Shown here: in pieces, positions 42,500 to 48,801 of the stretch
Position numbering within the stretch: position 1 is the stretch's first letter
Layout: each line of letters opens with the position of its first letter
From: Xanthobacteraceae bacterium
GTDB taxonomy: Bacteria > Pseudomonadota > Alphaproteobacteria > Rhizobiales > Xanthobacteraceae
Assembly: GCA_004297465.1 (NCBI GenBank)
Contig: SCUB01000010.1
Location: forward strand, 310,001-374,000
DNA: 64,000 bases
Reading direction: 5' to 3'
Position numbers and translations under genes: made by a program
Notes under the pieces: model-generated
Database searches by the model: none
What the model saw: the letters and a program-made list of their open reading frames with translations, nothing else
What the model was told of the DNA's origin: nothing

Positions 42500-43528
42500 A
42501 TGACATTCCCGACCGCTCCCCGTATCGACTGGGTCGACTACGCCAAGGGCATCTGCATCGTCATGGTGGTGATGATGCATTCGACGCTGGGCGTCGAGGC
42601 CGCGCTGGCCAAGACCGGCTTCATGCATCAGTTCGTCGCCTTCGCCAAGCCGTTCCGCATGCCGGACTTCTTCCTGATCTCCGGACTGTTCCTGGCCCGC
42701 GTCATCGACCGCGACTGGCGCACCTATCTCGACCGCAAGGTGGTGCATTTCGCCTACTTCTACGCGCTGTGGGTGACCATCCAGTTCCTGTTCAAGGCCC
42801 CGATGTTCGCCGCCGAGCACGGCTGGAGCGGCACCGCGGCGCTATACCTGATGTCCTTCATCGAGCCGTTCGGCACGCTGTGGTTCATCTACCTCCTGCC
42901 GGTGTTCTTCGTGGTCACGCGGCTGGCGCGGCCGCTTCCTCCCGCCCTGGTCTGGATCGCCGCCGCGCTTCTGGAATCGGCGCGCATCCACACCGGCTGG
43001 ACCGCGATCGACGAATTCGCCGCCCGCTTCGTCTATTTCTACTCCGGCTATCTGTTCGCCAGCCATGTGTTCGCCTTCGCCGAGGCGGTGCGCGCGCATC
43101 GCGGCCTGGCGCTGGGCGGCCTCGCCGTCTGGGCGCTTGTCGACGGCGCGCTGGTGTTTACCGGCTTCGGCGACTGGCCGCTCGTCTCGCTCGCGCTCGG
43201 CTTCGCCGGCGCCTGCGCCATCATCGCCATCGGCACGCTCCTGGCCGAGGCGCGCCTGCTCGAGGGTCTGCGCTACTGCGGCGAGCATTCCATCGTCATT
43301 TATCTGGCGTTCTTCCTGCCGATGGCGGCAACGCGGGTGCTGCTGATTCGTTCCGGCCTCGTCAGCGACGCGGGCCTGATCGCGCTGATCGTCACCGTCG
43401 CCGGCGTGATCGGCGCGCTCGCCATCTGGCGGGCCACGCGGGTGGCCAGGCTCAATTTCCTGTTCGAGCGCCCAGCGGCGCTGCGCCTCGGCGCGCCGCC
43501 GAAACCGGCCTTGCAGTCGGCGGAGTAA
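42500..43528 (+). CDS. Acyltransferase 3 family membrane protein
   Basis: A 342-residue polytopic membrane protein with about ten helices. The family's conserved His lies in IVMVVMMHSTLG on the first helix, and FRMPDFFLISGLFLAR is the second signature (Arg followed by a phenylalanine-rich helix). The C-terminal GEHSIVIYLAFFLPM is also typical. Such proteins O-acylate (acetyl, succinyl) membrane or surface polysaccharides and glucans. The acceptor is unknown, and no glycan genes are adjacent. The ATG follows an AACGAGACAG leader without a strong site. It is followed by polA in the same direction. Confidence 0.85.
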   Translation: MTFPTAPRIDWVDYAKGICIVMVVMMHSTLGVEAALAKTGFMHQFVAFAKPFRMPDFFLISGLFLARVIDRDWRTYLDRKVVHFAYFYALWVTIQFLFKAPMFAAEHGWSGTAALYLMSFIEPFGTLWFIYLLPVFFVVTRLARPLPPALVWIAAALLESARIHTGWTAIDEFAARFVYFYSGYLFASHVFAFAEAVRAHRGLALGGLAVWALVDGALVFTGFGDWPLVSLALGFAGACAIIAIGTLLAEARLLEGLRYCGEHSIVIYLAFFLPMAATRVLLIRSGLVSDAGLIALIVTVAGVIGALAIWRATRVARLNFLFERPAALRLGAPPKPALQSAE

Positions 43529-43616: not shown

Positions 43617-46592
43617 ATGATGCAGAAACCCGCCGCCGCCCAGCGCGATCACGTCTTTCTCGTCGACGGATCGTCCTACATCTTCCGCGCCTATCACGCC
43701 CTGCCGCCGCTCACGCGCAAGTCCGACGGCCTGCCGGTCGGCGCGCTGGCCGGCTTCTGCAACATGCTGTGGAAGCTGTTGCGCGACATGAAGCCGGAGG
43801 ACCGCCCGACCCATCTCGCGGTGGTGTTCGACCGTTCCGAGCACACCTTCCGCAACAAGCTCTATGCCGAATACAAGGCGCACCGGCCGCCCGCGCCCGA
43901 CGACCTCGTGCCGCAGTTTCCGCTGATCCGCGAGGCGGTGCGCGCGTTCGAGCTGCCCTGCCTCGAACAGGCCGGCTTCGAAGCTGACGACCTCATCGCC
44001 ACTTACGCGCGCCAGGCCTGCGCGCGCGGCGCCACCGTCACCATCGTCTCGTCCGACAAGGACCTGATGCAGCTCGTCAACGATTGCGTCGTGATGTACG
44101 ACACCATGAAGGACAAGCGCATCGGCATTCCCGAGGTGATCGAGAAGTTCGGCGTGCCGCCCGAAAAGGTCGTCGACGTGCAGGCGCTGGCCGGCGACTC
44201 GGTCGACAACGTGCCCGGCGTGCCGGGCATCGGCGTCAAGACCGCGGCGCAGCTGATTACCGAATACGGCGACCTCGAAACGCTGCTCGAGCGCGCGCCC
44301 GAGATCAAGCAGCCGAAACGGCGCGAGGCCCTGATCGGCAACGCCGAGCAGGCGCGGCTGTCGCGCCGCCTGGTGCAACTCGACGAGCACGTCACGCTCG
44401 ATGTGCCGCTCGACGATCTCGCCGTGCACGAACCCGACGCGCGGCGGCTGATCGCCTTCCTCAAGGCGATGGAGTTCACCACGCTGACGCGCCGCGTCGC
44501 CGAATACGCCGAGCTCGACGCCTCCGAGATCGCGCCGGACGGGAAGTTCAAGGCCGGCGGACCCGGCCCGGCCAGCACCGAGGCGCCACCGCCCGCGGCC
44601 GGCCGGCCGGCGGCCGGCGCGCCGGCCGCAAAACCTGCCGCGGCAAGGTCCGCCGCCGCGCCGGAGCAGCCAGCCGCCGGCGTCATGACGCCGCGGGCGC
44701 TCGCCGCCGAGCGCCTCGCGGCGGCGCGCGCGGGCGCGTTCGACCGCGGCCATTACCAGACCGTCCGCAGCCTTGCCGAACTTGCACCCTGGATCGCGCG
44801 GGCGCGCGACCTCGGCGAGGTCGCCCTCGACATCGCGACCACCGGTCCCGATCCGATGCAGGCCGAGCTGATCGGCCTTGCGCTGGCATGCGCGCCCGGC
44901 GAGGCCTGCTACGTGCCGCTGGCGCACCGCGACGGCGGCGGTGGCGAGGGCCTGTTCGCGGGCGGCCCGGTGGCGGACCAGATCGCCGCGCGCGAGGCGC
45001 TCGCCGCGCTTAAATCCCTCGTCGAGGACGCCGGCGTGCTCAAGATCGGCCACAACGTGAAGTACCGCGCCCAGGTGCTGGCCGGGCATGGGCTCGCCAT
45101 GGCCCCGGCCGACGACATCATGCTGATGTCCTACGTGCTCGACGCCGGACGCCAGTCGCACGACCTCGACGCGCTGGCGCAGCACTGGCTCGGCCACACG
45201 CCGGTCAACCTCGACGAGGTTACCGGCACCGGCAGGGCGCGGCTCGCCTTCGATCATGTCGCCATCGACCGGGCCGCGCCTTACGCCGCCGGGCAGGCCG
45301 ACGTGACGCTGCGGCTGTGGCGCGCGCTCAAGCCGCGCCTGGCCGCCGAGCGCATGCTCACCGTGTACGAGACGCTGGAGCGGCCGCTGATTGCCGTGCT
45401 CATGCGCATGGAGCGGCGCGGCATCGCCATCGACCGCCAGGTGCTGGCGCGGCTGTCGGGCGAATTCACCCAGGAGGCGGCGCGGCTCGAAGCCGAGATC
45501 CAGACCATCGCCGGCGAGCCGCTCAATCCGGGCAGCCCGAAACAGCTCGGCGACATCCTGTTCGGCAAGCTGAACCTTCCCGGCGGCAGGAAGACCAAGA
45601 CCGGCGCATGGTCGACCTCGGCGTCGGTGCTCGAGGACCTCGCCGAGGAAGGCCACGCGCTGCCGCGCAAGATCCTCGACTGGCGCCAGGTGGCGAAACT
45701 CAAATCGACCTACACCGACGCGCTGCCGGCCTACGTCAATCCGGTCACGCACCGCGTCCATACAACTTATGCGCTCGCCGCCACCACCACCGGGCGGCTG
45801 TCGTCGAACGAGCCGAACCTGCAGAACATTCCGGTGCGCACCGAGGACGGCCGCAAGATCCGGCGCGCTTTCGTCGCCACCAAGGGCCACCGGCTGGTAT
45901 CGGCCGACTACTCGCAGATCGAATTGCGCCTCTTGGCCGAGATCGCCGACATCGCGCCGTTGCGCGAGGCGTTCCGCGAAGGCCTCGACATCCACGCCAT
46001 GACCGCCTCGGAAATGTTCGACGTGCCGATCAAGGACATGACCGCCGAGGTGCGCCGCCGCGCCAAGGCCATCAATTTCGGCATCATCTACGGCATCTCG
46101 GCATTCGGTCTCGCCAACCAACTCGGCATCGCGCGCGAGGACGCCGCCGCCTACATCAGGAAATACTTCGAGCGCTTTCCCGGCATCCGCGCCTACATGG
46201 ACGAGACCCGCGAGTTCTGCCGCGCCAACGGCTATGTAACGACGCTGTTCGGCCGCAAGTGCCACTACCCCGACATCGCCGCGCCCAACCCATCGGTGCG
46301 CGCCTTCAACGAGCGCGCCGCCATCAACGCCCGCCTGCAGGGCACCGCCGCCGATATCATCCGCCGCGCCATGATCCGCATGGAGGAGGCGCTGGCCGCG
46401 AAAAAGCTTGCGGCGCGCATGCTGCTCCAGGTGCATGACGAACTGATCTTCGAGGTACCGGAGGACGAGGTCGAGGCCACCTTGCCTGTGGTGCGCGCGG
46501 TGATGGCGCAGGCGCCGCTGCCGGCGATCGCGCTCTCGCTACCGCTGCAGGTCGACGCTCGCGCCGCCCACAATTGGGACGAGGCGCATTGA
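43617..46592 (+). CDS. polA: DNA polymerase I with degenerate proofreading site
   Basis: A 991-residue repair and Okazaki-fragment polymerase. The 5'-nuclease domain (1-300) starts FLVDGSSYIFRAYHALPPL and has QAGFEADDLIATYA and SSDKDLMQLV. A Pro/Ala linker (about 310-358) follows. The 3'-5' exonuclease domain (380-580) keeps its fold, but its acidic motifs are altered: ExoI is DIA (405-407) instead of DxE, ExoII NVKYR (R484) instead of an Asp, and ExoIII YAAGQ (Q560) instead of YxxxD. Proofreading is therefore probably lost. The polymerase motifs are intact: A DYSQIELRLLAE, B RRRAKAINFGIIYG and C QVHDELIFEVP. It is preceded by a palindromic repeat and followed by one before pyrE. Confidence 0.96.
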   Translation: MMQKPAAAQRDHVFLVDGSSYIFRAYHALPPLTRKSDGLPVGALAGFCNMLWKLLRDMKPEDRPTHLAVVFDRSEHTFRNKLYAEYKAHRPPAPDDLVPQFPLIREAVRAFELPCLEQAGFEADDLIATYARQACARGATVTIVSSDKDLMQLVNDCVVMYDTMKDKRIGIPEVIEKFGVPPEKVVDVQALAGDSVDNVPGVPGIGVKTAAQLITEYGDLETLLERAPEIKQPKRREALIGNAEQARLSRRLVQLDEHVTLDVPLDDLAVHEPDARRLIAFLKAMEFTTLTRRVAEYAELDASEIAPDGKFKAGGPGPASTEAPPPAAGRPAAGAPAAKPAAARSAAAPEQPAAGVMTPRALAAERLAAARAGAFDRGHYQTVRSLAELAPWIARARDLGEVALDIATTGPDPMQAELIGLALACAPGEACYVPLAHRDGGGGEGLFAGGPVADQIAAREALAALKSLVEDAGVLKIGHNVKYRAQVLAGHGLAMAPADDIMLMSYVLDAGRQSHDLDALAQHWLGHTPVNLDEVTGTGRARLAFDHVAIDRAAPYAAGQADVTLRLWRALKPRLAAERMLTVYETLERPLIAVLMRMERRGIAIDRQVLARLSGEFTQEAARLEAEIQTIAGEPLNPGSPKQLGDILFGKLNLPGGRKTKTGAWSTSASVLEDLAEEGHALPRKILDWRQVAKLKSTYTDALPAYVNPVTHRVHTTYALAATTTGRLSSNEPNLQNIPVRTEDGRKIRRAFVATKGHRLVSADYSQIELRLLAEIADIAPLREAFREGLDIHAMTASEMFDVPIKDMTAEVRRRAKAINFGIIYGISAFGLANQLGIAREDAAAYIRKYFERFPGIRAYMDETREFCRANGYVTTLFGRKCHYPDIAAPNPSVRAFNERAAINARLQGTAADIIRRAMIRMEEALAAKKLAARMLLQVHDELIFEVPEDEVEATLPVVRAVMAQAPLPAIALSLPLQVDARAAHNWDEAH

Positions 46593-46636: not shown

Positions 46637-46724
46637 TCGTCACAGCCGGGCTTGACCCGCGCAGCCATCTCTTGAAATTGATGGCTGCAATGGATGGATT
46701 GCCGGGCCGAGCCCGGCGATGACA
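46637..46724. repeat. Palindromic intergenic repeat, family A copy 2
   Basis: The same element as at 31433-31509, with left arm CGTCACAGCCGGGCTTGACC and right arm GCCGGGCCGAGCCCGGCGAT. In addition, the centre holds a perfect 9-base stem (GCAGCCATC 46661-46669 with GATGGCTGC 46680-46688). It lies between polA and pyrE and ends 14 bases before the pyrE GTG. It contains an ATG (46694) in frame with pyrE that is best seen as part of the repeat and not as the gene start. Confidence 0.75.
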
Positions 46725-46738
46725 AAAGGGACCGTTTC

Positions 46739-47308
46739 GTGACCGCTTCCTCTCCCCGTTCCCGTCTCGCTTCCATCATCCGCGCCCGCTCGTTCGGGCG
46801 CGGCCAGATCACGCTCGCCTCGGGGCGGGTCAGTGACTTTTATTTCAACCTCAAGCCGACCATGCTCGATCCCGAGGGCGCGGCGCTCCTGGCCGAACTG
46901 ACGCTCGATGCGTTGGCCGGCGAGACGATCGATTACGTCGGCGGGCTGGAGATGGGCGCGGTGCCGATCGCGGGCGCCATCGCGCTGATGTCGTGGCAGA
47001 AGGGGCGGCCGCTGCCGGCCATCTTCGTGCGCAAGAAACCGAAGGAGCACGGCGCACGGCTCGCGGTCGAGGGCCTCGCCAAGGGCGAGACGCTCAAGGG
47101 CAAGCGCGTCGTCGTGGTCGAGGATGTCACCACCACCGGCGGCTCGGCGCTGAAGGCCGTCGAGGCGGTGCGCGAGGCCGGCGGCAAGGTCGCGCTGGTG
47201 TTCACCATGGTCGACCGCCAGGAAGGCGCGGCGGAAACCTTCGCGCAAGCCCGCCTGCCGTTCCGTTCGTTGTTCACGGCGCAGGAATTTCTCAACCCGC
47301 CGGCTTGA
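46739..47308 (+). CDS. pyrE: Orotate phosphoribosyltransferase
   Basis: A 189-residue enzyme that makes OMP from orotate and PRPP in pyrimidine synthesis. The PRPP-binding loop is [20 protein letters not shown]. The catalytic loop around [18 protein letters not shown] has the Lys residues and the substrate Lys-x-His region. [20 protein letters not shown] is the N-terminal signature. The GTG at 46739 is chosen: it has AAGGGA upstream and gives the usual length, whereas the in-frame ATG at 46694 lies within the palindromic repeat. It is followed by the antiporter gene 50 bases on. Confidence 0.94.
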
Positions 47309-47358
47309 TTTGGCCATCCAACTCGGCTTCGCTGGCGTCCTGATTGAGGGGGCGCGGC

Positions 47359-48801
47359 ATGGCGGGGATATTCAGGCGGACGCGGACGGCGGGCCGCGCG
47401 GCAACTCTTGCGATGGCAGCGGCGCTCGTCGCCTGCCCTTTTCCCGCGTTCGCCGCCGAGGGCCTCGATGGCTCGGGCCTGTCGCCCGTATGGGCGCTGC
47501 CGTTCGCCGGCATCCTGCTGTGCATCGCCACCGGGCCGGTGTTCTATCCGCATCTGTGGGAGCATCACTACGGCAAGTTCGCCGCGTTCTGGTCGGCCTG
47601 CGTCATCGTTCCACTGTATCTCACCGCAAACGCCGGCACGGTCACCCCCGCGCTGGCGCACACTGCGCTCCTTGAATACATGCCCTTCATCCTGCTGCTG
47701 CTGGCGCTGTTCACCACGGCGGGCGGCATCTATCTCGAAGGCAACCTGCACGACAGCGTGTTCACCAACACCATTCTGCTCGGCATCGGCGCGGTACTGG
47801 CCAGCATCATCGGCACCACCGGCGCCTCGATGATCCTGATCCGCCCGCTGATCCGCGCCAATGACGACCGCCGCTACAACACCCATGTCGTCATCTTCTT
47901 CATTTTCCTCGTTTCCAATATCGGCGGCTCGCTGAGCCCGCTCGGCGACCCGCCGCTGTTCCTCGGCTTCCTCAAGGGCGTCGATTTCTTCTGGACCACA
48001 CGCCATCTCCTGACCGAAACGGTGGTGGTGGGCGGCATCGTGCTCGCGGTGTTTCTCGCGCTCGACATCTACTTCCACCGCCGCGACGACCGCGCGCCGG
48101 TCACGGACCCCACGCCGGATACGCCGCTCCGGCTGCACGGCACCGTCAATTTCGCGCTGATCGCCGTCATCATCGCCGCGATCCTGATGAGCGCGACCTG
48201 GAATCCGGGCGTTTCCTTCCATGTCGCCGGCGTCGGGCTCGAACTGCAGGATCTCTTGCGCGACGCCATCTTCGTTGTCGTGACGCTGGCCTCGCTGAAA
48301 CTCACCGCGCAGGCCGACCGCGACGCCAACGGCTTTGCCTGGGGGCCGATCAAGGAGGTCGCCATCCTGTTCGCCGGCATCTTCATCTGCATCGTCCCGG
48401 TGATCGCGATGCTGCATGCCGGCGCGCACGGCCCGTTCGCCGGCCTGCTCAAGCTGGTCAGCCATGCCGACGGCAGCCCCAACAACGCCGCCTATTTCTG
48501 GCTCACCGGCGGGCTGTCGTCGTTCCTCGACAACGCCCCGACCTATCTGGTGTTCTTCGAACTGGCCGGCGGCGACCCCCAGACGCTGATGACCGCCGGC
48601 GCGGCGACGCTGGCGGCGATCTCGACCGGCGCGGTGTTCATGGGGGCCAACACCTATATCGGCAACGCGCCCAATTTCATGGTCTACGCCATCGCCCGCC
48701 AGGCTGGCGTCAGGATGCCGAGCTTCTTCGGCTACATGGCGTGGTCGGGGCTGATCCTGATCCCCTCTTTCCTCATCGCGACCTGGCTGTTCTTCTCCTG
48801 A
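47359..48801 (+). CDS. NhaD-like sodium:proton antiporter
   Basis: A 480-residue inner-membrane transporter of the ion-transporter superfamily (NhaD/CitM type) with about 12 helices. It has a signal-like first segment (LAMAAALVACPFPAFAAEGL). The conserved transport motifs are ILLGIGAVLASIIGTTGASM, FLVSNIGGSLSPLGDPPLFL and GGLSSFLDNAPTYLVFFELA, the last with the Asp-Asn pair involved in cation binding. MGANTYIGNAPNFMVYAIA follows near the end. GAGGGGG sits six bases before the ATG; a TTG 15 bases upstream is also in frame. It probably exports Na+ or Li+ for pH and salt tolerance. Organic-acid transport is an alternative. Confidence 0.85.
   Translation: MAGIFRRTRTAGRAATLAMAAALVACPFPAFAAEGLDGSGLSPVWALPFAGILLCIATGPVFYPHLWEHHYGKFAAFWSACVIVPLYLTANAGTVTPALAHTALLEYMPFILLLLALFTTAGGIYLEGNLHDSVFTNTILLGIGAVLASIIGTTGASMILIRPLIRANDDRRYNTHVVIFFIFLVSNIGGSLSPLGDPPLFLGFLKGVDFFWTTRHLLTETVVVGGIVLAVFLALDIYFHRRDDRAPVTDPTPDTPLRLHGTVNFALIAVIIAAILMSATWNPGVSFHVAGVGLELQDLLRDAIFVVVTLASLKLTAQADRDANGFAWGPIKEVAILFAGIFICIVPVIAMLHAGAHGPFAGLLKLVSHADGSPNNAAYFWLTGGLSSFLDNAPTYLVFFELAGGDPQTLMTAGAATLAAISTGAVFMGANTYIGNAPNFMVYAIARQAGVRMPSFFGYMAWSGLILIPSFLIATWLFFS

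Follow-up and report, generated by a model that had tools for sequence, protein, structure and literature searches.

We consider that the polA gene of the window, by which we mean the whole analysed stretch of 64,000 nucleotides from a Xanthobacteraceae bacterium, very probably encodes an ordinary DNA polymerase I of the essential type whose proofreading exonuclease is catalytically dead, the domain itself remaining in the enzyme as a folded unit. In related genera the Pol I proofreading site has been damaged repeatedly, with differing residues.

The gene (43617-46592; like all features below, on the forward strand) was delimited by its open reading frame, by Pfam and by phmmer comparison with the Klenow fragment. 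It encodes a protein of 991 aa in which the Pfam domains for 5' nuclease, 3'-5' exonuclease and polymerase follow in the usual order, as befits a PolA1. The FEN-like 5'-3' exonuclease domain occupies residues 13-275 (43653-44441; 5_3_exonuc_N and 5_3_exonuc, PF02739 and PF01367). An Ala/Pro-rich linker is seen in the translation at about residues 306-358 (44532-44690) and is modelled with low confidence (pLDDT below 50 at 319-353). Then comes the 3'-5' exonuclease domain, residues 380-575 (44754-45341), with a DNA_pol_A_exo1 match (PF01612) of 78.5 bits for a cut-off of 23.6; its fold is kept and its catalytic site lost, as judged from Pfam, pLDDT and the Klenow match. The polymerase domain covers residues 608-989 (45438-46583; DNA_pol_A, PF00476) and carries the motifs DYSQ at 764, RRAKAINFG at 814 and QVHDE at 938, with D764 and D941 retained. 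These three motifs are essentially invariant among intact and lost relatives alike, and both catalytic Asp columns are invariant in the 53 intact rows of our alignment, as they are among those lost rows that were scored (86 of 86, and 85 with letters). The first-pass annotation had called the polymerase and 5'-nuclease motifs intact, and the Klenow alignment, the motif check and the lack of any matching change in relatives all agree with it. The predicted structure has a mean pLDDT of 88.4 and a pTM of 0.65. Over residues 381-580, pLDDT per 10-residue block is 92-98, except for one loop (441-450) at 66. The best fold match of the model is the Klenow fragment 1kln_A (Z 37.8, 589 residues, 43% identity, window residues 374-991; the chains of the Klenow entries are numbered 324-928). 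As for the surroundings, Pfam assigns the neighbours of polA to an acyltransferase-3 protein (42500-43528), a phosphoribosyltransferase-fold protein (46694-47308) and a CitMHS_2 transporter (47344-48801), and none of these three is a nuclease or repair gene.

The best PDB sequence match to the window PolA is the E. coli Klenow fragment 1dpi_A (phmmer, E 7.2e-165). The alignment leaves no ambiguity and pairs D-I-A of the window with D-T-E, K-Y-R with K-Y-D and Y-A-A-G-Q with Y-A-A-E-D. In ExoI, D405-I406-A407 is encoded by gac-atc-gcg (44829-44837), which, in E. coli numbering, retains D355 and introduces T356I and E357A. ExoII has R484 (cgc, 45066-45068) for D424, hence D424R. In ExoIII, Y556-A-A-G559-Q560 (45282-45296), Y497 is retained and ggg-cag at 45291-45296 gives E500G and D501Q. 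Three of the four metal-ligand acids are gone (E357A, D424R, D501Q), D355 remaining, and the DEDDy motif is substituted in the way that marks a PolA1 as proofreading-inactive. The earlier description of a site disabled by several separate substitutions, with its codons, is therefore correct. That the acids might have shifted to neighbouring positions is ruled out, since none stands there in the alignment to 1dpi_A. By the codon table, starting from GAG or GAC, E357A would take one base change and D424R and D501Q two each, so that a single sequencing error cannot explain the site, as had been argued. It is hardly conceivable that faulty sequencing or assembly produced these residues: we found no point in support of this, while three separate sites, at least five base changes, an open frame of 991 aa and damage at the same sites in dozens of other assemblies speak against it. 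The window genome (3.1 Mb, 27 contigs) contains one PolA match, which rules out a second, intact PolA. A residual or altered use of metal at D355 is possible from the sequence, and the annotation 'DNA polymerase I, proofreading' would be wrong for this gene.

To see how the loss is distributed, relatives were sampled in the family of the window, taken here as Xanthobacteraceae as defined by GTDB, each genus being represented by one genome (37 genera, i.e. the window and 36 others); in the order, with 23 scorable other families (genome G060 yielded only a fragment); and in other parts of the class, with 56 scorable genomes out of 66, ten being unscorable. Further aligned loci came from the 80 named contigs with the greatest similarity to the window. 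Of the 37 genera of the family, 24 have lost one or more of the four acids, a count that treats as lost both L139, whose frame is interrupted, and L131 of genome G036; 13 genera are intact. Outside the family, the same is seen in 3 of the 23 scorable families of the order and, in other parts of the class, in 7 of the 56 genomes that could be scored. Fisher tests, which ignore relatedness, give p 1.3e-4 for 24/37 against 3/23 and p 2.3e-8 against 10/79. The first-pass annotation took close relatives in Rhizobiales to keep DTE / KxD / YAAED; with 13 genera of the family intact and 24 damaged, this is only half right. Nor do all relatives share the window's substitutions, many of them having lost the site with other residues.

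Among the 139 aligned rows, 86 lack at least one acid, a proportion biased by the 80 fetched loci, which are those closest to the window. Rows of the family are intermixed with those of records named Bradyrhizobium, Nitrobacter, Tardiphaga, Rhodopseudomonas, Ancylobacter and Pseudolabrys, which underlies its assignment to Xanthobacteraceae, and the motif is missing in every scored row labelled Bradyrhizobium. Methylopila capsulata has G, E, A and R at the four acid sites. A partial loss is found outside the window's family in four Mesorhizobium rows (L098, L100, L103 and L106), which combine E357R and Y497H with retention of the three Asp. Some records are peculiar in themselves. In L139 (genome G011, of the window's family) an in-frame TAG interrupts PolA, whose exonuclease acids differ as well; this may reflect a broken gene or an error of sequencing. 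G036 has two PolA genes, the family-type L131 with a damaged exonuclease and the distant L132 (52% identity) with an intact motif, and contamination, reported at 5%, could account for this pair. The PolA of L059 (titled Frankia sp. RB7) and that of the MAG L078 (titled Rhizobium sp. Q54) are placed among Bradyrhizobium or near Pseudolabrys rows, and the labels of both records look wrong.

The PolA tree was built without the exonuclease domain, from residues 9-300 and 590-990 of the 139 rows, L097 (a fragment) and L139 being left out. Parsimony on this tree requires at least 14 changes between the intact and damaged states. With regain barred, the number of losses is 16, falling to 13 when branches under SH-aLRT 80 are collapsed and to 10 under 95, all lost groups at one polytomy being merged in these collapsed counts. 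Rows having lost at least two acids, counted alone, again give 16, 13 and 10. A second tree of 40 rows, obtained with a mixture model and a slower method, places the window in a 13-row clade (support 100/98) together with the intact L002 and 11 lost rows; within it L002 adjoins the 11 lost rows (100/97), and the lost L012 branches next outside (100/89). Parsimony on this tree counts five changes. In AU tests, uniting the window with the 11 lost rows to the exclusion of L002 is weakly rejected (p-AU 0.040), while uniting it with L012 is not (p-AU 0.083). The residues at the four acid sites are D-A-R-Q in the window as compared with S-Q-T-L for L012. Because of the AU result and of these differing residues, the window's loss is probably its own. 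The earlier claim of a loss in this very lineage stands in that sense as the preferred reading, but with the grouping of window and L012 unrejected it is possible that a first step of the loss was common to both.

The same trees could be read as a single ancient loss in the family, undone several times since, either by reversion or by import of an intact exonuclease domain. Plain parsimony is indeed blind to gain versus loss, the intact L002 is placed between lost rows, and a single base could revert E357 had it alone changed. We nevertheless judge this reading very unlikely, as in a tree of exonuclease domains the nine intact ones of the clade stand together, L115 alone intruding, and the intact rows keep all four acids along with nearly all the surrounding cleft columns. 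None of the nine is close to an outside donor in the exonuclease tree, and import was rejected on this ground.

Gene content elsewhere in the window genome gives some context to the loss. The genome has one DNA_pol3_alpha match, corresponding to one DnaE-type polymerase (DnaE1), and therefore no DnaE2; it also contains two strong PolY matches, which score like DinB, and a weak ImuB-like IMS match was not found in it. The DnaE2-ImuB pair, present in most relatives, is missing from this genome. There are one RNase_T match of DnaQ size and one MutS_I match and, since DnaQ-like and MutS-like genes are retained, replicative proofreading and mismatch repair are probably intact. Two further genes belong to the DEDDy family (PF01612), a 212-aa frame and a longer RNase D-like frame, both of which show, by eye, D-T-E, a later D and Y-A-x-S-D. 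A small DEDDy exonuclease gene of about 210 aa (L198, G000:C7:136634-137086) accompanies the RNase D-like gene in many relatives' genomes. None of the gene-content features tested tracks the loss of the Pol I exonuclease.

These two motif-bearing DEDDy genes and the DnaQ-like gene could suggest that the proofreading of Pol I products is done in trans by another exonuclease, leaving fidelity unharmed. Three PF01612 matches are however present in 54 of 61 genomes (range 2-4), with no visible link to the state of PolA; the DEDDy genes therefore fail to explain which lineages lost the site, and proofreading in trans appears to us improbable. We are also doubtful, though less dismissive, about an adaptive loss, in which an exonuclease-free Pol I would have been selected for lesion bypass and mismatch extension, as a translesion or mutagenesis enzyme. 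The H. pylori Pol I offers a precedent (PMC3121766), the same has been proposed for B. subtilis, and a suggestion made in PMC12926913 points this way; the window genome lacks both DnaE2 and the weak ImuB-like match, and the losses are repeated and concentrated in one family. Yet weak selection gives repeated loss too, and the two strong PolY matches remain in the window genome. Absence of DnaE2 is not a correlate of the loss: it applies to 1 of the 21 lost genomes and to 3 of the 12 intact ones (p 0.12) among family genomes at least 90% complete, with four below this level dropped and the lone DnaE2-scoring match of G033 counted as DnaE2 present. Compensating changes in the rest of the enzyme were not detected either: of 95 residue tests in the polymerase and 80 in the 5' nuclease, none passed a threshold of net at least 5 of 9 independent pairs, uncorrected for many tests, so that no column of either domain tracks the loss. 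The same test was passed by 17 of 102 residues of the exonuclease domain, some of these defining the trait.

We therefore keep to the reading of an ordinary Pol I with a dead exonuclease, lost in a family where selection on Pol I proofreading seems weak, so that the activity would be lost often. Without the metal site, the window Pol I would not cut back a mispaired 3' end. In repair and in the filling of gaps between Okazaki fragments, mismatches would instead be extended or released, leaving mismatch repair and the selectivity of the polymerase site to deal with errors. Gap filling and primer displacement or removal via the 5' nuclease would persist, by analogy with the E. coli and H. pylori enzymes. 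After the loss, cleft residues freed from catalysis may drift or give way to residues better for the fold. The lower repair fidelity anticipated by the first-pass annotation is plausible in view of the H. pylori precedent (PMC3121766).

Inactivated Pol I proofreading is already known across bacteria and the window enzyme belongs to this kind, since a 2026 survey (PMC12926913) reports DEDDy substitutions in about half of bacterial PolA1, unrelated to genome size. With E. coli Pol I and its Klenow fragment, also a PolA1, the window enzyme shares the three-domain order and the polymerase motifs, and differs by the replacement of three of four exonuclease metal ligands. As in the inactivated PolA1 described by the survey, a full-length protein retains a 3'-5' exonuclease domain with a substituted motif. 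According to the survey (PMC12926913), inactivation is for the most part specific to phyla (Firmicutes, Tenericutes, Actinobacteria), and its authors suggest that proofreading by Pol I can often be dispensed with; here, by contrast, the state switches many times within one family. The PolA2 / APEX enzymes of Actinobacteria presented there likewise have a vestigial 3'-5' exonuclease domain, but they are described as having no 5' nuclease domain, which the window PolA possesses (residues 13-275), and as carrying a clamp-binding QxxLF motif. The latter is absent from the window exonuclease domain, a scan of which gave only QAEL (415) and QHWL (522), neither followed by F.

The Pol I of Helicobacter pylori, which lacks proofreading, is reported to be accurate on undamaged DNA, to extend mismatches and to bypass lesions (PMC3121766). 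As predicted for the window enzyme, it is a Pol I with no proofreading, its polymerase and 5' nuclease being retained. It has been tested in the laboratory, the window enzyme being known from its sequence, and H. pylori is described as devoid of specialised translesion polymerases, in contrast to the two PolY matches of the window genome. The same paper mentions, by citation, that an E. coli mutant lacking Pol I editing is a mutator and shows a lagging-strand bias (PMC3121766). A few proteobacterial PolA are noted in PMC6403173 as having lost the exonuclease domain. Our literature search found no description of frequent, recent and parallel loss of the Pol I exonuclease in Rhizobiales; PMC11253446 gave nothing on such recurrent loss, and the main text of PMC12926913 has no occurrence of Rhizobi- or Alphaproteobacteria, although its supplement may list such species and hold species-level data.

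That the loss recurs within a single family provides a useful natural experiment, and toggling between sister genera is in this respect more useful than a state fixed phylum-wide. Since the family as sampled contains both intact and dead enzymes, comparing its members on a nearly constant background could show how Pol I proofreading bears on mutation rate, strand bias and lesion bypass. The family also allows one to ask what an active site becomes once its function is gone.

Relative to the polymerase domain, the dead domain has evolved about twice as fast as in intact enzymes. With catalytic columns excluded and eight of the 139 rows dropped, the 80 lost rows show an exonuclease/polymerase end-branch ratio of 3.04, against 1.53 for the 51 intact ones (rank test, p 6e-10, related tips being treated as independent); the nuclease/polymerase ratios are 1.14 and 1.18. 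The window's own end branches measure 0.448 for the exonuclease, 0.191 for the polymerase and 0.093 for the nuclease. The dead domain of lost relatives is still under purifying selection, as its pooled dN/dS is well below 1: close, non-overlapping pairs of relatives gave 0.168 for the exonuclease, 0.046 for the polymerase and 0.084 for the nuclease over 20 lost pairs, probably mostly Bradyrhizobium. The intact values, 0.276 for the exonuclease and 0.149 for the polymerase, come from two close pairs only and make a weak comparison; over all pairs, where dN/dS is saturated, the exonuclease medians are 0.407 for intact and 0.436 for lost.

Conservation breaks down at the catalytic columns and in their vicinity, other positions remaining fixed. 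We took the columns with a conservation of at least 90% among 38 intact representatives and rescored them in 28 lost ones, six rows being dropped. In the exonuclease domain, 22 of 69 such columns stay at or above 90% and 13 drop below 50%, namely D355, T356, E357, L361, S372, Q419, N420, T442, G457, M458, D459, I471 and D501, with D424 at 0.61; no column falls below 50% in the polymerase (0/200) or in the 5' nuclease (0/102). Several of the fallen non-acid columns presumably line the exonuclease cleft in the Klenow fragment. Replacements at the acids themselves are diverse across lost lineages. Elsewhere, parallel changes recur within lost groups (intact branches in brackets): N420D 11 times (0), T442V 9 (0), T505A 9 (0) and S372A 9 (2), as counted by parsimony on a tree whose branches inside Bradyrhizobium are weak. 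The lost part of that tree is the shorter one, 8.22 against 14.71 for the intact part. Q419H arises three times on intact branches. The pattern looks like a release from catalysis that leaves few acceptable residues at some sites, and the parallel replacements may be stabilising. That they would reflect directional selection, re-tailoring the dead domain into a stabler scaffold freed of electrostatic strain or for a new non-catalytic role, is a tentative idea that we find rather unlikely; if true, the fate of dead active sites could be followed in this family as in a replicated natural experiment.
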